Of a stretch of DNA of 64,000 bases, positions 4,092-29,200 are shown one piece after another (positions within the stretch are counted from its first letter, which is position 1; the number at the start of each line of letters is the position of its first letter). The position numbers were made by a program, and so were the translations under genes. Origin of the DNA: Siphonodentalium dalli. Lineage: Eukaryota > Mollusca > Scaphopoda > Gadilida > Siphonodentaliidae. The stretch is taken from assembly GCA_032622095.1 (NCBI GenBank), contig CP136069.1, positions 184,501,122 through 184,565,121 on the forward strand. Reading direction: 5' to 3'. Below the pieces are notes generated by a model. That model was not told the DNA's origin, searched no databases, and worked only from the letters and a program-made list of their open reading frames with translations.

Positions 4092-4254
4092 TTGTTTGCA
4101 GTGAAGTTTGTAATCAGTGCAATCATATATTCACTGATGTTTCTGTCAGGATAGTCATACTCCTGTCGCGGGTACAGCCCAGTCAAGTTCACGTAGGTCT
4201 CATTAAAAAATGGTAAACCGAATATATACTGTAAGTCTTGACCATGTGCCACAC
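4092..4254 (-). CDS. Carboxylesterase exon 9 (catalytic histidine)
   Basis: Encodes residues 481-534 plus two bases, phase 1 to 2. Joined to exon 8 it reads PWRGVAHGQDLQYIFGLPF, with His484 as the catalytic histidine, followed by EYDYPDRNISEYMIALITNF, a family hallmark close to the C-terminus. Donor AACAA|GTGAGT. A further exon of roughly 30-40 codons is required; I do not see it between here and position 1. Confidence 0.94.
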
Positions 4255-7200
4255 CTGGAATCCATGAAATTTACTTCATTATAGACTCACAGTTGTCATA
4301 AATTTTTATCAAAATCCGCTGATAAATAAACATATACTAGTAGGCTATTAAAATAAAATATCGGTGTTCTCAGGCAATTAGATCTAAATTTTGAGATGAG
4401 AGAGGGAGGCTATTTATTTTTCTCAAAATCTGGAAAACATCCTCCAGAAACAAATAAAGAACATTTTCGTTGTCGAAATCCAATATTTCTAACAGCAAAT
4501 GTTGAAAAAAATGCTTGACAAGCTTTTTAAAAGAACATTTCAGTGATGAGGGAGGGGTCTGAGAACACGGAATGTTTACAAGGCTTAAAACAATTTTTTT
4601 TTTACTGCCTGTCAAAATGACAGGTGCATGGAGCTGGTCATTTCAGAATGGTGCCTGTCAAATTTTCACAATGACAGGACATGTGGCTTACTGTCTCCAA
4701 ATTCTTTATAATTTACAAATAACCAACAGTCGATGGTCCTTTATTGTTTATGTAATCACAGGACAATTAACTGTCAAATATGATTCATACCTGTATGTGT
4801 TTAATTATTTATTGAATAAAATAAAACAAAAATAAATAAATAATGTAAGCAGACGACAGATATACGAAAAGATAATAAAGGATTTCTATTAATTGGTGGG
4901 AAATATTCAGATAATAAGTTCAACAAACCTGTTCAACTTACTATCTGAACATTTCCTAAGGGAACTACGTACTCAAAAATGAGTATTTTGTATAGAAAGG
5001 GTTACTAAGGGAACTACTCATCAATGAGTATTTAGTATAGAAAGGTCTAATAAGGGAACTACTGATCAATGATTATTTAGTATAGAAAGGGTTAAAATAA
5101 TTGTATAGTTAATGAACCAGTACCAGTAACCATGATAAAAGCACACATGATTTACCAATTTTTTCACAAAAATATACGACATGAACTTCACTTATAAATA
5201 CAAAACTGATTGAATGTTATACAAAAATATAGAAAAATGACCAATTATGTATAACCCAATAAGTCTTTAAAACCCTTTCAGTGCCAGGTCCGATTTTTGT
5301 ATCAACCCATATACCCTGTGCCAATGCATTCTCTTATATATGTGAGTCGACCATAGGTCCCCTCGCATATATAAGAGAATGCATTGGCCTAAAAAAAATT
5401 CATCATTTGTTATTATTTTTTACAATTTTTTACAATTTTAATAATTTTTTCTTATATTCTTTAACAGACTTATTTTGTAGGTTTAGTGCCAGGCAATCTT
5501 ACGTTTTTCATGGGCAGCAAAATTATTACTATGAATACTTGGTGATAGTTTTGAGGTACAACATACCCCAAAGGTTTTATCCAGTTTGTTTTTAAATTCG
5601 CTATAGCATGCTTAAGCATACCCAAACAAAATTCAACCCAAAAAAATCTAAAACAATTTTTATTTTTTTTATTTTTTTAGGGCCGATTTTACAGACTGTA
5701 AATTAGGGCCGATGAGATCGGCCCCTGGCACTGAAAGGTTAAAATGAGTAATTTAAACAGATTTTGTTTTCATCCGACCATAATGTACAAAATTTGTAAA
5801 CCAGAAAATCAAACAACCATGGCCTTAAACACATGCACAGAATACAAACCTCTCCATGGTGGCATATCTTACACACATGCACAGAATACACACCTCTCCA
5901 TGGTGGCATATCTTACACACATGAATACATACCTCTCCATGGTGGCATATCTTACACACATGCACAGAATACATACCTCTCCATGGTGGCATATCTTACA
6001 CACATGAATACATACCTCTCCATGGTGGCATATCTTACACACATGAATACATACCTCTCCATGGTGGCATATCTTACACACATGAATACATACCTCTCCA
6101 TGGTGGCATATCTTACACACATGCACAGAATACATACCTCTCCATGGTGGCATATCTTACACACATGCACAGAATACATACCTCTCCATGGTGGCATATC
6201 ATACACGCATGCACAGAATACATACCTCTCCATGGTGGCATATCATACACGCATGCACAGAATACATACCTCTCCATGGTGGCATATCTTACACACATGC
6301 ACAGAATACATACCTCTCCATGGTGGCATATCATACACGCATGCACAGAATACATACCTCTCCATGGTGGCATATCTTACACACATGCACAGAATACATA
6401 CCTCTCCATGGTGGCATATCTTACACACATGCACAGAATACATACCTCTCCATGGTGGCATATCTTACACACATGAATACATACCTCTCCATGGTGGCAT
6501 ATCTTACACACATGAATACATACCTCTCCATGGTGGCATATCTTACACACATGAATACATACCTCTCCATGGTGGCATATCTTACACACATGCACAGAAT
6601 ACATACCTCTCCATGGTGGCATATCTTACACACATGAATACATACCTCTCCATGGTGGCATATCTTACACACATGAATACATACCTCTCCATGGTGGCAT
6701 ATCTTACACACATGAATACACACCTCTCCATGGTGGCATATCTTACACACATGAATACATACCTCTCCATGGTGGCATATCTTACACACATGAATACATA
6801 CCTCTCCGTGGTGGCATATCTTACACACATGCACAGAATACATACCTCTCCATGGTGGCATATCTTACACACATGCACAGAATACATACCTCTCCATGGT
6901 GGCATATCTTACACACATGCACAGAATACACACCTCTCCATGGTGGCATATCTTACACACATGAATACATACCTCTCCATGGTGGCATATCTTACACACA
7001 TGAATACATACCTCTCCATGGTGGCATATCATACACGCATGCACAGAATACATACCTCTCCATAGTGGCATATCTTACACACATGAATACATACCTCTCC
7101 GTGGTGGCATATCTTACACACATGCACAGAATACATACCTCTCCATGGTGGCATATCTTACACACATGAATACATACCTCTCCATGGTGGCATATCTTAC

Positions 7201-10200
7201 ACACATGAATACATACCTCTCCATGGTGGCATATCATACACGCATGCACAGAATACATACCTCTCCATGGTGGCATATCTTACACACATGAATACATACC
7301 TCTCCATGGTGGCATATCATACACACATGAATACATACCTCTCCATGGTGGCATATCTTACACACATGCACAGAATACATACCTCTCCATGGTGGCATAT
7401 CTTACACACATGCACAGAATACATACCTCTCCATGGTGGCATATCATACACGCATGCACAGAATACATACCTCTCCATGGTGGCATATCTTACACACATG
7501 CACAGAATACATACCTCTCCATAGTGGCATATCTTACACACATGCACAGAATACATACCTCTCCATGGTGGCATATCATACACGCATGCACAGAATACAT
7601 ACCTCTCCATGGTGGCATATCATACACGCATGCACAGAATACATACCTCTCCATGGTGGCATATCTTACACACATGCACAGAATACATACCTCTCCATGG
7701 TGGCATATCATACACGCATGCACAGAATACATACCTCTCCATGGTGGCATATCTTACACACATGCACAGAATACATACCTCTCCATGGTGGCATATCATA
7801 CACGCATGCACAGAATACATACCTCTCCATGGTGGCATATCATACACGCATGCACAGAATACATACCTCTCCATGGTGGCATATCTTACACACATGCACA
7901 GAATACATACCTCTCCATGGTGGCATATCTTACACGCATGCACAGAATACATACCTCTCCATAGTGGCATATCTTACACACATGCACAGAATACATACCT
8001 CTCCATGGTGGCATATCTTACACACATGAATACATACCTCTCCGTGGTGGCATATCTTACACACATGCACAGAATACATACCTCTCCATGGTGGCATATC
8101 TTACACACATGAATACATACCTCTCCATGGTGGCATATCTTACACACATGAATACATACCTCTCCATGGTCGCATATCTTACACACATGAATACATACCT
8201 CTCCATGGTCGCATATCTTACACACATGAATACATACCTCTCCATGGTGGCATATCTTACACACATGAATACATACCTCTCCATGGTGGCATATCTTACA
8301 CACATGAATACATACCTCTCCATGGTCGCATATCTTACACACATGAATACATACCTCTCCATGGTGGCATATCTTACACACATGAATACATACCTCTCCA
8401 TGGTGGCATATCTTACACACATGCACAGAATACATACCTCTCCATGGTGGCATATCTTACACACATGAATACATACCTCTCCATGGTGGCATATCTTACA
8501 CACATGAATACATACCTCTCCATGGTGGCATATCTTACACATATGCACAGAATACATACCTCTCCATGGTGGCATATCTTACACACATGAATACATACCT
8601 CTCCATGGTGGCATATCTTACACACATGAATACATACCTCTCCATGGTGGCATATCTTACACACATGAATACATACCTCTCCATAGTGGCATATCTTACA
8701 CACAGAATACATACCTCTCCATGGTGGCATATCTTACACACAGAATACATACCTCTCCATGGTGGCATATCTTACACACATGAATACATACCTCTCCATG
8801 GTGGCATATCTTACACATATGCACAGAATACATACCTCTCCATGGTGGCATATCTTACACACATGAATACATACCTCTCCATAGTGGCATATCTTACACA
8901 CATGAATACATACCTCTCCATGGTGGCATATCTTACACACATGAATACATACCTCTCCATGGTGGCATATCTTACACACATGAATACATACCTCTCCATA
9001 GTGGCATATCTTACACACAGAATACATACCTCTCCATGGTGGCATATCTTACACACATGAATACATACCTCTCCATGGTGGCATATCTTACACACATGAA
9101 TACATACCTCTCCATAGTGGCATATCTTACACACATGAATACATACCTCCCCATAGTGGCATATCATACACACATGAATACATACCTCTCCATGGTGGCA
9201 TATCTTACACACATGAATACATACCTCCCCATAGTGGCATATCATACACACATGAATACATACCTCTCCATAGTGGCATATCTTACACACATGAATACAT
9301 ACCTCTCCATGGTGGCATATCTTACACACATGAATACATACCTCTCCATGGTGGCATATCTTACACACATGAATACATACCTCTCCATAGTGGCATATCT
9401 TACACACATGAATACATACCTCTCCATGGTGGCATATCTTACACACATGCACAGAATACATACCTCCCCATGGTGGCATATCTTACACACATGAATACAT
9501 ACCTCCCCATGGTGGCATATCTTACACACATGAATACATACCTCTCCATGGTGGCATATCTTACACACATGAATACATACCTCTCCATGGTGGCATATCT
9601 TACACACATGAATACATACCTCCCCATAGTGGCATATCTTACACACATGAATACATACCTCTCCATGGTGGCATATCATACACACATGAATACATACCTC
9701 TCCATGGTGGCATATCTTACACACATGAATACATACCTCTCCATGGTGGCATATCTTACACACATGAATACATACCTCTCCATGGTGGCATATCTTACAC
9801 ACATGCACAGAATACATACCTCTCCATGGTGGCATATCTTACACACATGAATACATACCTCCCCATAGTGGCATATCTTACACACATGAATACATACCTC
9901 CCCATAGTGGCATATCATACACACATGAATACATACCTCCCCATGGTGGCATATCTTACACACATGAATACATACCTCTCCATGGTGGCATATCTTACAC
10001 ACATGAATACATACCTCCCCATAGTGGCATATCTTACACACATGAATACATACCTCCCCATAGTGGCATATCTTACACACATGAATACATACCTCCCCAT
10101 GGTGGCATATCTTACACACATGAATACATACCTCTCCATGGTGGCATATCTTACACACATGCACAGAATACATACCTCCCCATGGTGGCATATCTTACAC

Positions 10201-13200
10201 ACATGCACAGAATACATACCTCTCCATGGTGGCATATCTTACACACATGAATACATACCTCCCCATAGTGGCATATCTTACACACATGAATACATACCTC
10301 TCCATAGTGGCATATCTTACACACATGAATACATACCTCCCCATAGTGGCATATCTTACACACAGAATACATACCTCCCCATAGTTTCATATCTTACACA
10401 CAGAATACATACCTCTCCATGGTGGCATATCTTACACACATGAATACATACCTCTCCATGGTGGCATATCTTACACACATGAATACATACCTCTCCATGG
10501 TGGCATATCTTACACACATGAATACATACCTCTCCATGGTGGCATATCTTACACACATGAATACATACCTCTCCATGGTGGCATATCTTACACGCATGCA
10601 CAGAATACATACCTCTCCATGGTGGCATATCTTACACACATGAATACATACCTCTCCATGGTGGCATATCTTACACACAGAATACATACCTCTCCATGGT
10701 GGCATATCTTACACACATGAATACATACCTCTCCATAGTGGCATATCTTACACACAGAATACATACCTCTCCATGGTGGCATATCTTACACACATGAATA
10801 CATACCTCTCCATGGTGGCATATCTTACACACATGAATACATACCTCTCCATAGTGGCATATCTTACACACAGAATACATACCTCTCCATGGTGGCATAT
10901 CTTACACACATGAATACATACCTCTCCATGGTGGCATATCTTACACACATGAATACATACCTCTCCATAGTGGCATATCTTACACACATGAATACATACC
11001 TCCCCATAGTGGCATATCTTACACACAGAATACATACCTCTCCATGGTGGCATATCTTACACACATGAATACATACCTCTCCATGGTGGCATATCTTACA
11101 CACATGAATACATACCTCTCCATGGTGGCATATCTTACACACATGAATACATACCTCTCCATGGTGGCATATCTTACACACAGAATACATACCTCTCCAT
11201 GGTGGCATATCTTACACACATGAATACATACCTCTCCATAGTGGCATATCTTACACACAGAATACATACCTCTCCATGGTGGCATATCTTACACACATGA
11301 ATACATACCTCTCCATGGTGGCATATCTTACACACATGAATACATACCTCTCCATAGTGGCATATCTTACACACATGAATACATACCTCTCCATAGTGGC
11401 ATATCTTACACACATGAATACATACCTCTCCATAGTGGCATATCTTACACACATGAATACATACCTCTCCATAGTGGCATATCTTACACACATGAATACA
11501 TACCTCTCCATGGTGGCATATCTTACACACATGAATACATACCTCTCCATAGTGGCATATCTTACACACATGAATACATACCTCTCCATGGTGGCATATC
11601 TTACACACATGAATACATACCTCTCCATAGTGGCATATCTTACACACATGAATACATACCTCTCCATGGTGGCATATCTTACACACATGCACAGAATACA
11701 TACCTCTCCATGGTGGCATATCTTACACACATGAATACATACCTCTCCATAGTGGCATATCTTACACACATGAATACATACCTCTCCATGGTGGCATATC
11801 TTACACACATGAATACATACCTCTCCATGGTGGCATATCTTACACACATGAATACATACCTCTCCATGGTGGCATATCTTACACACATGAATACATACCT
11901 CCCCATAGTGGCATATCTTACACACATGAATACATACCTCTCCATAGTGGCATATCTTACACACATGAATACATACCTCTCCATAGTGGCATATCTTACA
12001 CACATGAATACATACCTCTCCATGGTGGCATATCTTACACACATGAATACATACCTCTCCATGGTGGCATATCTTACACACATGAATACATACCTCCCCA
12101 TAGTGGCATATCTTACACACATGAATACATACCTCCCCATAGTGGCATATCTTACACACATGAATACATACCTCCCCATAGTGGCATATCTTACACACAT
12201 GAATACATACCTCCCCATAGTGGCATATCTTACACACATGAATACATACCTCTCCATGGTGGCATATCTTACACACATGAATACATACCTCCCCATAGTG
12301 GCATATCTTACACACATGAATACATACCTCCCCATAGTGGCATATCTTACACACATGAATACATACCTCCCCATAGTGGCATATCTTACACACATGAATA
12401 CATACCTCCCCATAGTGGCATATCTTACACACATGAATACATACCTCTCCATGGTGGCATATCTTACACACATGAATACATACCTCCCCATGGTGGCATA
12501 TCTTACACACATGAATACATACCTCTCCATAGTGGCATATCTTACACACATGAATACATACCTCTCCATGGTGGCATATCTTACACACATGCACAGAATA
12601 CATACCTCTCCATGGTGGCATATCTTACACACATGAATACATACCTCTCCATGGTGGCATATCTTACACACATGAATACATACCTCTCCATAGTGGCATA
12701 TCTTACACACATGAATACATACCTCTCCATGGTGGCATATCTTACACACATGAATACATACCTCTCCATGGTGGCATATCATGCACACATGAATACATAC
12801 CTCTCCATGGTGGCATATCATACACACATGCACAGAATACATACCTCTCCATGGTGGCATATCTTACACACATGAATACATACCTCTCCATGGTGGCATA
12901 TCTTACACACATGCACAGAATACATACCTCTCCATGGTGGCATATCTTACACACATGCACAGAATACTAAACTCTCCATGGCGGCATATCTTACACACAT
13001 GAATACATACCTCTCCATGGTGGCATATCTTACACACACGCACAGAATACATACCTCTCCATGGTGGCATATCTTACACACATGCACAGAATACTAAACT
13101 CTCAATGGTGGCATATCTTACACACATGAATACATACCTCTCCATGGTGGCATATCTTACACACATGCACAGAATACATACCTCTCCATGGTGGCATATC

Positions 13201-16200
13201 TTACACACATGAATACATACCTCTCCATGGTGGCATATCTTACACACACGCACAGAATACATACCTCTCCATGGTGGCATATCTTACACACATGCACAGA
13301 ATACATACCTCTCCATGGTGGCATATCTTACACACATGAATACATACCTCTCCATGGTGGCATATCTTACACACATGAATACATACCTCTCCATGGTGGC
13401 ATATCTTACACACACGCACAGAATACATACCTCTCCATGGTGGCATATCTTACACACATGAATACATACCTCTCCATGGTGGCATATCTTACACACATGC
13501 ACAGAATACATACCTCTCCATGGTGGCATATCTTACACACATGAATACATACCTCTCCATGGTGGCATATCTTACACACATGAATACATACCTCTCCATG
13601 GTGGCATATCTTACACACACGCACAGAATACATACCTCTCCATGGTGGCATATCTTACACACATGAATACATACCTCTCCATGGTGGCACATCTTACACA
13701 CATGCACAGAATACATACCTCACCATGGTGGCATATCTTAGACACACGCACAGAATACATACCTCTCCATGGTGGCATATCTTACACACATGAATACATA
13801 CCTCTCCATGGTGGCATATCTTACACACATGAATACATACCTCTCCATGGTGGCATATCTTACACACATGAATACATACCTCTCCATGGTGGCATATCTT
13901 ACACACATGCACAGAATACATACCTCTCCATGGTGGCATATCTTACACACATGCACAGAATACACACCTCTCCATGGTGGCATATCTTACACACATGCAC
14001 AGAATACATACCTCTCCATGGTGGCATATCTTACACACATGCACATAATACATACCTCTCCATGGTGGCATATAGTCCGCCCAGGATTTGTAGTCAAATA
14101 CATAAAGAAATGTTGTGTTCTTCAGCGCATGGTAATTAAGAACCTCATTTGTGGCTGATCCAAACATGTAGTCTGACATCATCTGTATGAGAAGTAGAAA
14201 TTATTCAGATACGTTAGTCTGGAATCATGGAAAGTTTTGTAATTTAAAAATAAACGTCTCCAAGCCTGGACAAATTATGGAAAAAGGCACCTTATTTAAC
14301 CTCACAACAGCTCACTATAGAAAAGTTCTGGAAAATGTTACACCTCTCAGATGGACTAGAAAATTCATGGAATTTCCGAATTAACTTAATTACCAAAATT
14401 ACCTTTGAATTAGTTGAAGCGCAAGTGTAAAATTAACGTGTTGATTCTGAAAATCCTGGAAAATGTTTGGAAAAGTCATGGAATTTTATCCTTGGATACA
14501 GTAATGACCTAAGTAATCGACTCCTTAACCACAGCAGAATTATGGGTAACTTTTCAGGCAGAAATCAAATTTAGTGGATAAGGTTAATAAATTTTGTATA
14601 GAAATGTGATGAACTTGAGATCAATTTGATCACATAATCACATTTTAGCAAGGAAAAATGATCTCGAAATGACTGGGTTAAACAAAATTAATATTGATTT
14701 CCTTATCACAACCACAGAGGAAGTAAAGACACCTTCAAGAACAAATATAGTTCCATTTTAAATGTGTATTTTCATGTTGACAAAATTATACAACCACCCT
14801 TATCACCCATGTTTATCTCACAGTCAACACTAAATAACCCAACAGAAATTGAATATCATAATTATATTCTAATTCATATAATAATAAAGTTCCGTCATTG
14901 ACATCAACATCATTGCACTAAGCTCTTACGTCACTGTGCATGGCATTAATATACACGAGTCTTACTAAAAATATTAGACTGCATTTAGGAGCTTAATTAT
15001 GCGATAAAAATATGTAAAATCATCATTATTAAGAAGAATGTGAAAAAATAATTAAATTTTGTTCATATTTTTATTGTCAAAAAAATCCTCTAATAACGAG
15101 ATGTCATGAGATGAAACTGTTGTTGCTTAAGCCTTTCAGTGCCAAGTCCGATTTTTGTACCAACCCATATTCCTTGATCATTTTTCAAATTTAAGAGCTC
15201 TTTCCATCAATGTATCACATTATTATAATCAATAAATTTGAAAAATGATCAAGGAATATGGGTTGGTACAAAAATCGGACTTGGCACTGAAAGGGTTAAA
15301 CATCAACTGATAGTTACATTACTGTTTTCACTACTCTTACTGTGAAGACCACTGGTATGTTCAAATAGCACAATTAAATAATGAAAGTGAACATTAGTAA
15401 ATGTAAATAGATAGATTTTCAACTAAATAGTTGAATCACAATTGCCAATTGTGATGTTTGTTGACAAAACTGTAATAGAAGCATGCTTAGTGTAATGTTT
15501 GAGACAGTGCATATTTTTTTTTGGGGATTGAGTGTGATTCGAGCCCATGACGGTGAGCGCGCCTTGCGACTCAAAGTCCGATGTCAATACCACATGTCCA
15601 CCAAAGCGACCCCAAAAAAGGAAGCTCCTAATAAAATAAATTTGGACTTGCTTCTAAAAATAGGCGCCAGGTATATTCAAAGAGCAACGCTCGGCATGTT
15701 TCACAGATGTATATATAACATACTACTGTGCCATATCTGCTATATATAAAACTGTAATAGTTTATGTTTACATAACAATGATTCTCATTATTGGGCAATT
15801 ATTAACCCTTTCATGATGGGAGCTGCGCTGGTGCAGATTTAAATATCATGTGCCAGTGCATTCTCTTATATACGAGTCTCCCATAGGGAGCCTCACATAT
15901 ATAAGAGAATGCACTGGCTTACAAGGTCAAGGTAAATATTGTTAGGCCAATGTATTTTCTTATATATGCGAGGCTACCTATAAGACTCACATATATAATA
16001 GAATGCATTGGTACAGGGTTTTCACATAATTTCAGGAAGCTCCAGTCATGGAAGGATTCAAGCCTTGAAATACGGTGTCTGTCATTTGCAGAATGAGGTC
16101 CCCAGAGGGTGAATTTAGTGATGCTACCCCGCATAGTGGGCTAGCATCACCAAATTCACCCTCTGGGAACCTCATTCTGCTGAGGTGTAAGCAGAATGAG

Positions 16201-19200
16201 GTCCCCAGAGGGTGAATTTGGTGATGCTAGCCCGCTATGTGGGGTAGCATCACTAAATTCACCCTCTGGGGACCTGATTCTGCAAATGACAGACACCCTA
16301 TTTCAAGGCTTGGAAGGATTAACTGTAAGATGAACTCACATCAACAACCATTTGTCTGGACATTGACTGATTGAGCTTCTCTGGCCAATACGTGTACTCA
16401 AAGTCGAGAGCATCATATGACCCGATATAATTCTCAACTGTTCGATCATTCAAGAATTCTCTCAGGATATTTGCAAACTGCATATTGTCTATTCCCTCAT
16501 CTAAAGTTGGCATGTTTGCTGAAAAGATAGGAGATACAATATCATCTTCAACCTGACAAGCCTGAGATTAGTGTGAATGTCATTTGCAGAATGAGGTCCC
16601 CAGAGGGTGAATTTAGTGATTCTATCCCACACAGCAGGCTAGCATTACCAAATTCACCCTCTGGGGACCTCAGACTAAACTCAGGCTTGTCTAGAACTAA
16701 TATTTCTTTCCTGCCACATAAAGATCAATCAACAGTAATAATAATGTACAGTTTGTCAGACTTCTCACCAAACCGTTCTATCAGTCATAATAGCATGGGG
16801 CAATGAGATTAATTGAGATATTAATACGTTAATTTAAAAAAAGGTCGTATTATGTAATCAGTCTGTCCGTCCGTCCGTCCGATCTGAACCAAAGTTGGTA
16901 TTTTCCAGCTAAAGAATACAGGCCAAGTTCGATTATGGGTTCCGTCCAATTATTTTTACATGAGTTACGGCCCTTTTTCGACTTAGAAGTTGACCGCATT
17001 TTGGTATTGAAATTAGGGGTATATCAGATATTCTTCAAATGTAAGCTCAAAGTATTATTTTATGTTGCAGTAGTACAATTCGAAATGGCTAAAGGGCGTA
17101 TTTTGCCACGCCCTAGCGATGCTCTTGTTCCCTGATGTCTAGCTAGCTGTACAGGTAAACCAACTAATAAATTGCTGTGGCCAATTGGCCATGTGATAAA
17201 TGTTCCTTATTGTGTGGTAGAAGATGACCCCTGGTTAAGTGGTCCTACTAATGTGTTATGATGCAGTTGGGTCCTGCTGAATTGCTATGATGCTGTTAGG
17301 GCAAACTGATGCTGTTAACAAATAGTACCGTTATAATATTTTTTTATTTGTCTTTTTCGCGGTGTTCCGATAGTCTGAACATATCCAGGAAAAGACATTA
17401 TGCATGTCAAATATTCAAAAACATATTTATTGCGAAATAATAATGGTTGTATTAGTTGTTGAAAATCGACTATAATCAAGATGTTTATTCATGTCATTTT
17501 AGAAACACCAGCGCAGGCATTATTATATTTAAAAAAAATATATATGTTCTTGAATGTTTCAAACACACACTGGTTTCCTTTCTAAAATCGCTTGGATTAG
17601 CCAAACAGCCCGAACTGGGCAAACTGATGCTTTTAACAAATAGTACCGTTATATTTTTTATTTGTATTTTTCGCAGTGTTCCGATAGTCTGAACATATCC
17701 AGGAAAAGCCATTTCGCATATCAAACATTCAAAAACATATTTATTGCAAAATATTTTTAATAATGGTTGTATTAGTTGTTGAAAATCGACTACAATCAGA
17801 TGGTTATTCATGTCATTTTAGAAACACCAGCGCAGGCATTATATTTTTCAAAATATATGTGTTCTTGAATGTTTCATACACAGACTAGCTTTTTTCTCAA
17901 ATCGCTCGGATTAACAGCCCGAAAAGACAACTTTAGGAAAAAATAATGGTACATTTTCGTAATGGCATCAGTTTGCCCTACCCGCATCATATCAATTCAG
18001 CAGGACCCCCCGGCATCATAGTATATTAGCAGGATCACTTGACCAGGGGTGAAGATGTCTGAAAATATCACAAACTAAACTAACTAGGTGAATCATATAA
18101 CTGCATATCGTTGACAGGCTTTTAAATGTGGTATCTGGTGTTTTTGGTGCAAGGCAACTTTTTCATATTTAGAATCTATGGGTTCGATTACGTAATTTCC
18201 TCACATAAACTTGTCAATTTTTCGACTATAAATGTAATTTTTCAGGAAAAATTGTGTATGAAAATTTTTATCAGGATTTCCCGCAAAATTGTGTTTTATA
18301 TTTCTTTAAGATTTTTCAAAAATGTTGCTACTATGATAATTCTTATGGGATTGTTTTGACCAGGGGCATTTCCTCCGTATCCTGAGTGACAGAGACTAAC
18401 CGAACCCACATAAATTGTCAAAACTAAATGACATATCTCACAATTGAATAATTTTTACTTCTAAAATGTTGCATAAAACCATAAAATTATGTTTTTCTCA
18501 TCAACTAGAGGAGATATGAATATGAAAGTTTATATTTTATAACAACATTGATACATATGTGTTATATACACAATGTGTTTGTAACGATTCATGTATCGCG
18601 ACGAGGCTAGTTTTTTTTGGCCATATAGCGACGAGGCGACCTTGGTCGCCGAGTCGCTATGTGGTCACGAAAACTGTCCGAGTCGCGATACATGAATCGT
18701 TACAAACACATAACACGTTTATCTACCATTCGTGTGAGAGAATCCATCACACAAATTATATTTTAGGAGTTTTTTAAATGACAAAATCATTGGATTTGTG
18801 TTCTACGATTAGCTTACTTGAGTAAGTTCTCCCAACATACAATGTAACAGTGTCACACGATTATCTTGATTTGCTAAATTCTCCCAACCTGCATGTTCAC
18901 ATGAATACGCCTAATGGAAATTGAATTCAATGGAAAAAATCTCTTACACCTGCATTTTGATATAATTATATAATAAATACTCAACAAATATGTATTAGTT
19001 ACTTTGTGATATGTTTTACCATAATACCCATGGTGGGAGGCAATCAAATAATGTTAAAATTTAAGAAATATTTGTTTATAGTGCGCAAGAATATACATTG
19101 GAATGTTGTTTTCATTTCTCACGCGATTGATGTGACGTCAGTTCACTCATGATTTTGAACTAGTCAATGACATCATGCGCGCCTTGTACCGCAACTGCAG

Positions 19201-23200: not shown

Positions 23201-26200
23201 AACCACACAAGCTGTAATTATAAATTAACCCTGTCTATACTAAATACTCATTGATGAGTAGTTACCTTATTAACCCTTTCTATACTAAATACTCATTGAT
23301 GAGTAGTTAGTTCCCTTAGGAAATGTTGAGAGAATAATGTTTCCCACCAATGGATATCAATACTATTGCATTTCTATTTGCTTTTAATTTTCTGTCATCT
23401 GCTTTTATTACATGCACAACTAGAGGTGTGACTGTCCCAATGGGACTACAGATACCCCCCCTGTTTTTAAAATACTAAGATGTCAGTAAACATTTAGTTA
23501 AAATAATAAAATAACAGTTCCCATTGCAGGTGTACAACCATAACCCTAATCTTAAACCTATTGACCGAAAAATGTAGGAATAAAAGCTTGGACAAAATTA
23601 TGCATGTCGCGAAAAAATTTCTAAGTCGAAAAAGGGGAATAACTCCACACAAAACATGTCGGACAGACGTCATAATCGCAGGTGCACAGGTTCCCATGGT
23701 GGTTGATATCTGTGCCAAGTTTCACAGAAATTGATAAAAAAACGACTGAGAAAAACTCCTGACAAATTTGTGTCCACGGTACTACGGACGGACGTATGTA
23801 TTGTTTATTAACTGATTAGGAGAATTCATTCAGTATAGAATGGGCTAATTAAGTAGAACTCAAATTGGATGCCATAACAATATTTCAATTTACCTTTAGG
23901 CTCACTCTAGCTGATGCATTAACGATCTCATCCGCACTCCTGTATAACTGTAGACAGTCGATTAGTCGTACCATGTCATTAATTGGGCATCCAACCTGCT
24001 CTCCTAATGCTCTCGCATAATAATTAGCATCTTCAGGTGTTGGTACTGTCGCCCATTTACTGCGATCAGAGCCACTCAGCATAATGGCCTGCGTGAATAA
24101 TCCTGAAAGAAAGAATCTACACATTATATATGGTACCCTACAACAAATGCTATACCACAGATCAGAGTCAATCCCTAATTCACTATCTCCTTCTTAAAAA
24201 CTCATGAATCATGATGAATGTCCCAAAATCATTAACATACCATGCAGTTACCCCTTACCTTGGCTAAAGTCTGATAATAAACATATTAATGGGTTCTTCA
24301 AGAATTTTTAAGCCATTCAAACTTTGCAAATTTTAGAATTTCCCATTGGGATCTTCATCTGCAATATTTTAATTTAAAAGTCATGACTTGTAATTTTTAA
24401 ATTTAATGCCCATTAATTCATATAGTGTCTAGTGATGATGATTACCTTTCATTACCAGGATAATTGGCCAATAGTAGTGTGCATCCGCAGAATGACAAGT
24501 CTCAAATGTGTGGGGTAACAAATGTTAATATTAATTACTTTGGTCATAATTGAAATTCTTGCACACGCAATGATTTTTCACTCAATGTAAAATTGAGGCT
24601 CTTCTCATTCACACACCACATACTAGGCCACTGCTAATAGTGTGTTTTTGTTTGAATAGAATTTCAAAGCAAATAGCTCTCAAATTTTTTTTTAAACAAA
24701 TCGAATATATCATAATCTTGGTCGCAGAAATTTAAGATAAAGATATGTCTGTATATCAGAATTATCTATTAAATAAAACACGTTGTCATCTTATTTTGTG
24801 AATGGTGGACTCCTCCAAAGATAGATGTAACAAAAAATTTGGAAAATACAATTTTGAATTGAATGATGTCATTAATGGGGAATTCAACATCAATTTGAAA
24901 TACTGAACAGGAGATGGACCATTGTGGAATTATGCTATCGCAATTTTCTCAAAAATAAAACTTGCACTTTTGCAAACGACATTACAACTGTCACTTCAAG
25001 TCAAAACTGAGCAAACACAATCAAATAACACAAAGATAATACATCTAATAGCGTATATGCAGTCACGCGACGTACTGTTCAACAGAATTGTGAAGTATCT
25101 CTCTGTCTCCAATTCAATGTCCTCAGAATAAATTATAAACTGCTGCCAGTATATTCGAGGTCGCGAAACAAGAGGGTTAGAACAGTTAAAATGAACCTAA
25201 AACAGTGTACAAGGCTGCAAATAGCATGTCTGTCAATGAGGTCCCCAGAGTGACGCTATCTCACACAGCGGGCTAGCATCACTAAATTCACACTCTGGGA
25301 ACCTCATTCTGCTTAGGCCCTCAACTGCTATGGTATACCTAGGATCAGACTGAAGTTCCCCAGTTGAAATTGGTGATGTTCACCCATAGGGCACCTCGAT
25401 TATGCATCTTATCTGCTGCAAATTAGGGGATATAGAAACTTCCAAGAAGGGAAAACTATAAAAATTGTTAATTGGAGATATGGGGTCTCCAGAGGGTGAA
25501 TTTGGTGATGCTAGCCCACTGTGCGGGATAGCATCACTAAATTCACCCTCTGGGGACCTCATTCTGCAAATGACAGGCACGCTATTTGTAGGCTTGCAAG
25601 TGTATCTACTTTTTATATTTTCGCAGTAGTTATGACTGTTAAAATATTACTGCTAAATGCACAACGATCACGCTCACTGGTTTGAAGTATTCAAAACAGG
25701 AGGTGTGCACTCGAGTGCTAGCATACCCCCACCGTGGCAAATTCAACCCGCATTATCCGTAAACTCAACAAAAAAGATTTTTAACTTTAAAGAAAAATTC
25801 GGACTAATAATATCGATATGGTGTCACAAGAAGCTTGTACACAAAAAATTATTCAAATCGGTTCATATTTGTTAAAGTTATTAAGTCAGACAGAATTTTC
25901 TAAGTCAAAATAGGTCGAAAATGAAGTGTAATATTACGAAAAACAGACTGAGCCAATCCCTAGCCGCATCATGTAGAGAGGCCATTGTGAAAAGCATGTA
26001 TACCAAAAATTATTGAAATCGGTTCATATTTGTTAAAGTTATTATGTCGGACAAATAAGTCGAAAAAGATGCGTAACTTGAAAAATAAAGTCGGACCGAA
26101 CCGCAATTAGCATCATGCGGAGAGACCGTCCGAAGGAGATTGCATACAAAAAATTATTGAAATCGGTTCATAGTTGTTCGAGTTATGAGGTCGGACGGAC

Positions 26201-29200
26201 GGACACACGGACGGAGAAAGCGTGACGGACAGACGGACGGACGGAGTCAATCCAGTATACCCCCCATTTTCTTCGAAAGTGGGGGTATAATTACTATTCG
26301 TTGCTTCAAAGTCGATTTGAATATCGAGGTCGATTCAAAGAACAAAACGAAGTTTGCAGGGACGGAACTTATTTATAGAATATAATTTTCCTACCTTCTG
26401 ATCTTGGTGACAATAAGTGCAAACCCACTGACGCTGCACCAGTGCTTTGTCCAACTATCGTTATTTTCTGAGGATCGCCGCGGAATCCAGATATTGCTTC
26501 TTTCACAAATTCAAGTGCACGAACTTGATCCCACATTCCGTAATTTCCAGGAGCATATGTGTCTCCTGTGCTAAAGAAACCTGAAAGAAAGAGTCATATG
26601 AATAAACTCTCTATTTGAGATGCCTTAAATTTTCTTATAGGCCTATACCAGAACCAAATTTAAAAACATGCAATATGTCTATACAATAAAAATACAAAAT
26701 CAACATTCAGAACAAAGTGGGACAGTTTCCTAGCCCAATAACAAATGAAAGTGTCAATGACACTGTAGCTCAACTTAGCAAGGCATTAATAATTTTATGC
26801 TGAGCAGTCAATAGAATGATAAAGAAGAAGGAAAGTAACCAAGTTTCAGTAAAAGGATTGTATTGTGTAGATGAAATTTTTTTCATTTTTAAACATTCTC
26901 CAATACATGTGGACTGCAAGCTGGGTGTGCTGATGAATTAAAATGTGAAATCCAAGATATGGCAGCTGGTGGACATTTTTTTTTCTCACAAATTTCAGAG
27001 AAAACAAAACTCTCATCTAGAGGTCACCACAGAGAACCATACAATGTTTGGTGATGATCGGATGAGGGATGTTGCATGTTGGGTGTGCCGAAGGATTAAA
27101 AACGAAAAGAGTAAAATCCAAGATGGCCACTGGCAGCCATGTTTTTCAATAAAATTTGGAAAAAAAATGATGGCTCCCATTTAGTGGCAGCCAGAAGATC
27201 GATATGAAGTTTGGTGATGATCGGATGTGGTCTGTAAGGTGCGCCAAAGGATTTAGTCGTGCAAAGAATAAATTACAAGATAGTCTGTAGTTAACTTAGA
27301 CTGGTGTCTTCCTAGAATTAGTTACACACACATACAGCTACAGTAATGCTCTAAATAATCAACTCCGATGAATGGCAACAAGCCATATTTCCGACTAAAT
27401 CCTGAAAAGTTACCCATAATTCTGCAGTGATTAAGAAGTGAGAGCTTTCCGATGAATGGCAACAAGCCATATTTCCGACTAAATACTGAAAAGTTACACA
27501 TAAATCTGCTGTGGTTAAGGAGTTGATTATTTAGGGCATTACAGGTACATGTATGTATAACTAATGTAGGTCATGCAATGAATCTCTACTCTAGCTAATG
27601 CCCGCAGAGATCATATTCCACCAGTACAAAACTTGGGAACTTTTTGAAGTTTTGACAGGGAACCTCATAAAGTCAAAAACATAACGCAGGGAATACAGTT
27701 CTTAGTTGTTACCTGTTCCTTAATAGTGTAGGTAGGTAAAGGTCCCAACTCGAGCCAATATCGCAATAAACATCAAATTAATTACACATGATAAATTAAA
27801 TGTAGGTGACGCAAAGCAGAATCGCTCACAAAGTCACTTAAATCGTGAAATTTGAGTTGGGACCTTCACCTACAGTGAAGTACATTATAGGAACATGTAA
27901 TAACTAAGAAATATATTCACTGCGTTATTTTTTCGACATTATAAGGTTCCCTGTCAAAACTTCAAAAAATTCCCATGTGTTGTACTAGTGGAATATGATC
28001 TCTATGGGCGTTAGCTAGAGTAGAGATTTATGGCATGATCTACATGAACATGTATATATATTATACTAGCCGATGAGCCCGACGTTGTCCGGGCTATTCA
28101 AAAACCAAATTTCAAGTCGATAGCTCTACCCAGCCCGACGTTGTCCGGGCTATTCAAAAACCAAATTTCAAGTCGATAGCTCCACCCGTTTCCGAGATCT
28201 CGTCTGCGCATGCGCGAAGCTGGCGTCGCACGGGCTCGGCGACCCGATAAAATTTGTATCCGGGACAAGATACATTCACATACCAAATTTCAAGTCGATA
28301 GCTCCACCCGTTTCCGAAATCTCGTCTGCGCGAAGCTGGCGTCGCACGGGCTCGGCGACCCGATAAAATTCGTATCCGGGGCAAGATACATTCGCGTAGC
28401 AAATTTCAAGTCGATAGCTGCACCCGTTTCCGAGATCTCGTCTGCGCATGCGCGAAGCGGGCGCCTCACGGGCTCGTCAATACGACAACGTCGACCGCCT
28501 GGTCAAACTACAAACACGTACCAAGTTTCGTCCCGATCGGTCGAGAATCGTAGATTTGTATAAATGACATACAGCTAAACAGAGGTCTTCAAAATATATA
28601 TGAGATACCTAGAGCATTCAACCTGTAGCTGACTGTAACCACGACAATCTTTCTCTCTGCAAGAAACATGGCAGGGTACATCTCGGGAGTACCCATTGTC
28701 CACCCACCACCATGGAAGAAAACCATCACAGGATACAAAAACGGGTTAGATGACCTGATTTCCTCTGTGTACTGGAATGAAAATAAGGAAAAATTTGTAT
28801 TTTAAAGGTGAAATGACGAGGCTCATCAAAGGAGAATTTTAACATCAAATATTATAATCATGGTTCCAACCAGTATAATATATGACAATCTGAAAATATT
28901 TATATATTTGATGTTTTTCAGCATTAGTCTATTTAATAAAAAATTAAAAAATTAAAAACAGCTTTGGCAAGTTTTTGAGAGTACAAGTTTTTGAGAGTAC
29001 ACAGAACCTGTTGATTGGTGATTCATTTATATGTTGACCTGTTCCAGAATTCCCTTGACATATAATTGAAATGAGCAATCTCAGTTTAACTTATATGTAC
29101 ATGTAGTACCAGTGCTGTACCAAGTACTATTATGTGTTGTTGAACATTGGATCCACAATAATACACAGGTGGATGTAGGTACCGTATTTATATACTGTAT

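Follow-up and report, generated by a model that had tools for sequence, protein, structure and literature searches.

We found that intron 8 of a carboxylesterase gene in Siphonodentalium dalli, within a 64,000-nucleotide (nt) stretch of contig CP136069.1 (positions 184,501,122 to 184,565,121; hereafter the window), consists largely of a tandem array in which the end of exon 8 and its 5′ splice site (the donor) recur in 204 units. We interpret this array as a giant mirage, produced by ordinary tandem duplication followed by array growth and tolerated because the first donor is used, a reading to which we give a probability of roughly 0.75. Mirages are tandem repeats that span exon–intron boundaries and were described in the Adh3 and globin genes of amphioxus (PMC3087553; this and all other papers are cited from excerpts) and further in amphioxus PGBD5 and TnC (PMC3902484). 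In amphioxus they occur at both 5′ and 3′ borders, are unstable in length, and in many cases carry AG/GT signals (PMC3087553). The esterase array is not an unknown kind of intron; what is new is its size and the recurrence of such border copies in a non-chordate genome.

Tandem Repeats Finder detected one array at positions 5836-14073 of the window with approximately 204 copies, and an anchored decomposition of the minus strand resolved it into 204 donor-containing units of 44, 39, or 38 nt (5832-14074), which occupy about 84% of intron 8. Among the 203 unit spacings, 132 measure 39 nt, 60 measure 44 nt, and 11 measure 38 nt. The 44-nt unit reads ATATGCCACCATGGAGAG/GTATGTATTCTGTGCATGTGTGTAAG, with the slash at the exon–intron border, and in the other units the intronic part is 5 or 6 nt shorter; as in a mirage, each unit joins 18 nt of exon 8 to an intronic part of 20, 21, or 26 nt. 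The exonic 18 nt are identical to the exon 8 end ATATGCCACCATGGAGAG, which codes within ..DYMPPWR-G, and an exact match to this 18-mer is expected about 1e-6 times by chance given the base composition of both strands of the window. A preliminary description of this DNA had recognized the 8-kb array of some 200 copies of the exon 8 end with its donor, almost all of them GAG/GUAUGU, and both points held, though the array starts 18 nt before the end of exon 8 and not, as was then stated, exactly at the junction. Over the 204 units the donor hexamer is GTATGT in 197, GTGTGT in 4, TTTAGT in 2, and GTTTGT in one, the last unit (unit 204, 5844-5849, minus strand). As in many amphioxus mirages, the splice signal is copied along with the border: GAG/GT is kept in 202 of the 204 units and lost in 2. 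The array also includes 184 occurrences of the hexamer GTAAGA. Separately, the perfect Kozak string GCCACCATGG occurs 151 times on the minus strand of the array, probably as an accident of the exon sequence.

Around the array lie minus-strand exons, and four of the six exon pieces tested match the carboxylesterase family PF00135 (exons 7 and 8 were unmatched on their own), bearing out the earlier assignment of the array to an intron of an esterase gene. Exon 8 (14056-14182; ..YKSWADYMPPWR-G, with a phase 1 end) was aligned to a paralog, L006, and the repeat unit takes its exonic half from the last 18 nt of this exon. The authentic donor 1 (GTATGT, 14050-14055) opens an intron of 9,801 nt (4255-14055) that runs from the donor G at 14055 to an acceptor AG at 4255-4256, and exon 9 follows at 4092-4254 (GVAHGQDLQYIFG..), aligning to PF00135 positions 429-469. 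Upstream, an exon at 26395-26574 that matches PF00135, its borders placed by eye, carries the nucleophile motif GQSTGAASV, and a further exon carries KDEG; together with the exon 9 motif, we take these to be the catalytic Ser, Glu, and His by cholinesterase alignments. We found nine exon pieces, seven placed by alignment to paralogs and two (exons 6 and 7) by eye, and all are open with plausible splice sites and with the GQSTGA, KDEG, and VAHG motifs kept. The authentic border copy remains in place, in a gene whose coding sequence is intact over the nine pieces found. It is highly improbable that the locus is a pseudogene, silent, or a product of assembly: these open exons, the ordered unit variants, the position of the array within a 215-Mb contig, and a paralog on contig C3 with the same design all argue against it. 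We detected no exon after exon 9 in the remaining 4 kb of the window and 8 kb beyond, which would fit such a decayed gene, though this is a weak test as the paralog queries end soon after exon 9.

The choice of donor would matter for the protein. Only donor 1 of the 204 leaves an open frame into exon 9, while donors 2 (+44) and 3 (+88) shift the frame and donors 4 to 204 (201 of the 204) lie downstream of an in-frame TAA at 13943-13945 on the minus strand. As the preliminary description had predicted, a coding transcript would require the first donor, and any other would cost the protein its exon 9 part with the histidine motif. Since the exons are open and their motifs are kept, donor 1 must presumably be used if the enzyme is made. 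We suggest that a tandem duplication chanced to span the border of exon 8 and intron 8, and that slippage or unequal exchange may then have expanded it to the 204 units of the present intronic minisatellite. Splicing would take the first donor, which adjoins the complete exon, and the later copies, exon ends included, would leave as intron, so that the array could be tolerated. We infer transcription of the gene, use of donor 1, neutrality of the array, and a duplication process of an ordinary kind, not aimed at splice sites.

Variation among the units suggests that the near-perfect donors reflect homogenization. Over 29 distinct unit types, the last unit excluded, the 6 donor sites have changed 8 times, the 13 exonic sites that precede the donor 19 times, the 6 sites of GTAAGA 9 times, the 8-14 spacer sites 8 times, and the 5 sites of ATATG once. 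Counted by unit, GTATGT is intact in 197 of 204, the adjoining TGTATT in 202, GATATG in 202, GTAAGA in 184, and CATGGA in 148. The donor hexamer is therefore kept no better than neighboring hexamers, and donor sites vary about as other sites do, with no visible selection on them. Mean divergence from the class consensus is 1.7%, and identical units are neighbors in 49 of 203 pairs, compared with a mean of 36.7 (standard deviation 4.6, maximum 53) in 2000 shuffles; the unit classes and this clustering of like units agree with array turnover. At the ends of the array, unit 204 is altered and unit 1 carries a base found in no other unit; blocks of 17 units revealed no clear end effect.

These counts bear on two roles that had been raised as speculation, a sink for the U1 small nuclear ribonucleoprotein and a shield of the long intron against premature polyadenylation, for either of which the array would have been selected as a U1 platform. 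The 197 GTATGT donors would suit such a function, as would the lack of AATAAA and ATTAAA in the array as read on the minus strand (over the full window, that strand has 71 and 50), though this lack amounts to a single observation, that of one unit repeated 204 times. Selection for U1 binding would be hard to reconcile with donors kept no better than their neighbors, and the second donor-like hexamer, GTAAGA, is as abundant as had been claimed but pairs weakly with U1 (computed at -4.3 kcal/mol, against -8.9 kcal/mol for GAG/GUAUGU). Furthermore, as described below, unrelated genes carry similar duplications at a rate close to that of introns. The proposed roles are unsupported by these data, and we consider that a function of this kind almost certainly does not explain the array.

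Border copies are not confined to this gene. The C3 paralog, which matches PF00135 and shares the exon borders of the host gene, has an intron between exons 8 and 9 at the same place and in the same phase, and this intron starts with four CAGGAG/GTAAGT donors at 0, +86, +186, and +266 nt, along with a fifth, partial copy that has no donor. These units differ from those of the host gene in sequence and length, and here too the frame is kept by the first of the four donors only. Within the host gene itself, such copies were found at one of eight donor junctions tested (that of exon 8) and at none of eight acceptor junctions tested; the exon 6 donor was left out, and borders were placed by eye, some of them a few bases off. 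A query made of exons 8 and 9 detected four paralogs, all four intronless at the exon 8/9 junction, but such a query misses intron-bearing paralogs, and the C3 paralog was found through its exon borders. We also observed that first exons of esterase type (PF00135 positions ~2-97) cluster at C4:205.6-206.5 Mb and again at C4:238.2-238.7 Mb, which suggests tandem gene families.

A wider sample of exon borders revealed further cases. We picked 60 exon ends by hand, drawn from myosin (40 of the 85 matches) and esterase (20 of the 59 matches, five of them in the C3 paralog), and added 52 exon starts from the same matches as well as the two borders of each of the 30 best CCT/Cpn60 matches out of 53. 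An automatic caller placed 80 of the 90 donors and 72 of the 82 acceptors, with 10 of each dropped, L023 and L100 among them. A downstream tandem copy straddled 7 of the 80 donors (L021, L033, L050, L052, L058, L147, and L151), which represent six distinct events as L033 and L052 are paralogs; L023, uncalled and a paralog of L021, is an eighth by eye. In L050 (C3:221197193-221197993, 60-585), an array of 28-nt units, GAAGACCCATTAAATTACAG/GTAATAAT, begins at a myosin-like exon end and has 14 copies of TACAG/GT. In the chaperonin exon L151 (C2:20445158-20445289 and the following intron), a fuzzy pattern recovered 10 copies of the exon end with the GT kept in 6. L058, which is exon 4 of the C3 paralog, has 79-nt units, and the paralogous myosin pairs L021/L023 and L033/L052 and the CCT exon L147 have two copies each. 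Use of the second donor would lead to a stop or frameshift in all five loci for which the frame was assigned (L050, L058, L021, L023, and L052). As a separate observation, the L050 units each run from GT to AG and resemble miniature introns.

On the acceptor side, an upstream copy was found at 1 of 72 junctions (L148). By eye, the uncalled L100 (C4:291688642-291689442, ~295-769) presents the mirror case upstream of a myosin exon start, with 28/32-nt units CAG/GTCTGGTCGATGCC.. in 13 exact copies, while L105 has repeats near the start of its match but no exon start could be placed, and it was left uncounted. The difference between donors and acceptors was not significant, either as called (7/80 and 1/72; Fisher p 0.066) or with L023 and L100 included (8/90 and 2/82; p 0.10). 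By one and the same criterion, tandem copies on the donor side covered 7 of the 80 junctions; within the exon, coverage was 2/80 at a distance of 60 nt from the border, 6/80 at 40 nt, and 5/80 at 20 nt, and within the intron it ranged from 6/80 to 12/80 at distances of 50 to 300 nt. On the acceptor side, coverage stayed at 1/72 between the junction and 60 nt into the exon and was 1/72 to 5/72 over the same intronic distances. In this small sample, donors are therefore struck about as often as intron positions, with depletion only deep in the exon, and we rejected the idea of a donor hot spot. In a post hoc comparison, tandem copies within 300 nt were found in 24 of 80 donor flanks and 8 of 72 acceptor flanks (p 0.005), or 22 of 78 and 8 of 70 after rough removal of paralogs (p 0.014). 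First-donor and first-acceptor rules would help explain, again post hoc, why copies are commoner at the starts of introns than at their ends.

The esterase array is the largest of several that we found in the S. dalli genome, and the small sample suggests that copied splice borders are common there. Tentatively, and at slightly less than even odds, we propose that about 1 exon end in 11 has its own donor copied in tandem across the border, at roughly the density found in intron interiors, and that donors act as a seedbed for intron growth of which the 204-copy array is the extreme. Duplication would pass almost unnoticed at donors, since the donor transcribed first is kept.

Several points weigh against tolerance through the first donor and against its generality. 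The use of donor 1 is a prediction from reading frames. Where identical 5′ splice sites compete, the intron-proximal one is often favored, which would predict trouble for this gene. In the predicted RNA fold, accessibility is low for all 29 donors computed and donor 1, at 0.0019, is the least accessible; structure z-scores for four pieces (-1.37, -2.20, -1.87, and -1.51) likewise hold nothing that favors it, so there is no obvious sequence reason for donor 1 to win. The sample of exon borders is small, hand-picked, and partly paralogous, with 20 of the 90 ends from esterases, including five from the C3 paralog, for which the exon 8 case was already known, and the automatic caller put the L050 and L021 donors on the second copy instead of the first. 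Alternatively, splicing may be leaky, with the first few donors all in use, so that the coding transcript would be mixed with frame-shifted or nonsense ones that lower or regulate esterase output. The computed U1 pairing of donor 1 is the same as that of the repeat donor (-8.9 kcal/mol), and in human IFI6 two downstream units of a minisatellite serve as donors, giving isoforms (PMC4526556). However, every later donor in the esterase gene leads to a frameshift or stop, unlike donors that yield useful isoforms, and the excerpted account of amphioxus mirages indicates that regular splicing is left undisturbed (PMC3087553). We regard such leakage as unlikely, though not negligibly so.

Relatives of the array were also sought in the rest of the genome. 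A genome-wide search with its first 269 nt as query returned at least 41 matches, a lower bound, of which 39 fall in the esterase array; the other two are weak (70 and 69%) and lie together in a second array, on contig C2. We considered this second array (L003, C2:20136036) as a relative, but its 40-bp unit shares about 15 nt and we treated it as unrelated; it adjoins an apparent Penelope-type reverse transcriptase frame, recognized by eye. Elsewhere in the window, recurrent palindromes (GAATGAGGTCCCCAGAGGGTGAATTT.., CATTCTCTTATATATG..) at 16088-16283, 25233-25646, and 5300-5390 resemble short inverted-repeat transposons.

Introns built on repeated splice borders have precedents, and the remark in the preliminary description that it knew of no described intron of this kind is not supported in view of the amphioxus mirages (PMC3087553, PMC3902484) and human IFI6 (PMC4526556). 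Like the esterase array, the amphioxus examples (Adh3, the globins BflGb6/BflGb9, TnC, and PGBD5) are minisatellite-like and span the border, and Adh3 data together with reverse transcription PCR of the globins suggest that they leave regular splicing undisturbed (PMC3087553). The excerpted amphioxus globin gene has 3 and 6 repeat units, whereas the esterase array has 204 units over 8.2 kb; the esterase array also differs in its lophotrochozoan host. For the host's affinity we rely on a Hox gene on contig C7 with KLTGPD after the homeodomain, which we take to be of Lox5 type, bearing the presumed lophotrochozoan signature KLTGP. The genome yielded no match to PF14830 (molluscan haemocyanin) or PF16915 (annelid linker), but these negatives had no positive control and say nothing about the lineage. 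Human IFI6 (6-16/G1P3) resembles the esterase gene in that its minisatellite supplies several splice donors (PMC4526556, citing Turri 1995; the title also appears in PMC2572611), but its downstream donors yield isoforms while those of the esterase destroy the frame, which argues against useful isoforms here. In human segmental duplications, border repeats can alter gene structure or form introns, but unlike the esterase array these have 30-bp units, four repeats on average, and lie in primate-specific paralogs (PMC2812944, in excerpt). Among the open-access literature matches listed, none reported mirages by that name outside amphioxus, which is no proof of absence; in the excerpts of PMC10693001 and PMC8309469 the word stands only in reference titles on other subjects. 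A model of new introns through tandem duplication of AGGT would predict a 3′ intron end that resembles the end of exon 8; judged by eye only, the intron end ..TTTCATGGATTCCAG is unlike the exon 8 end ..GCCACCATGGAGAG.

With some 200 near-identical donors in one intron, only the first of which can be right, the esterase gene is a natural experiment on splice-site choice. Should RNA show splicing from donor 1 only, the influence of position or timing would have to exceed that of sequence by far. That border copies recur in myosin, CCT, and esterase genes of an animal outside the chordates would turn mirages from an amphioxus curiosity into a measurable route of intron growth.

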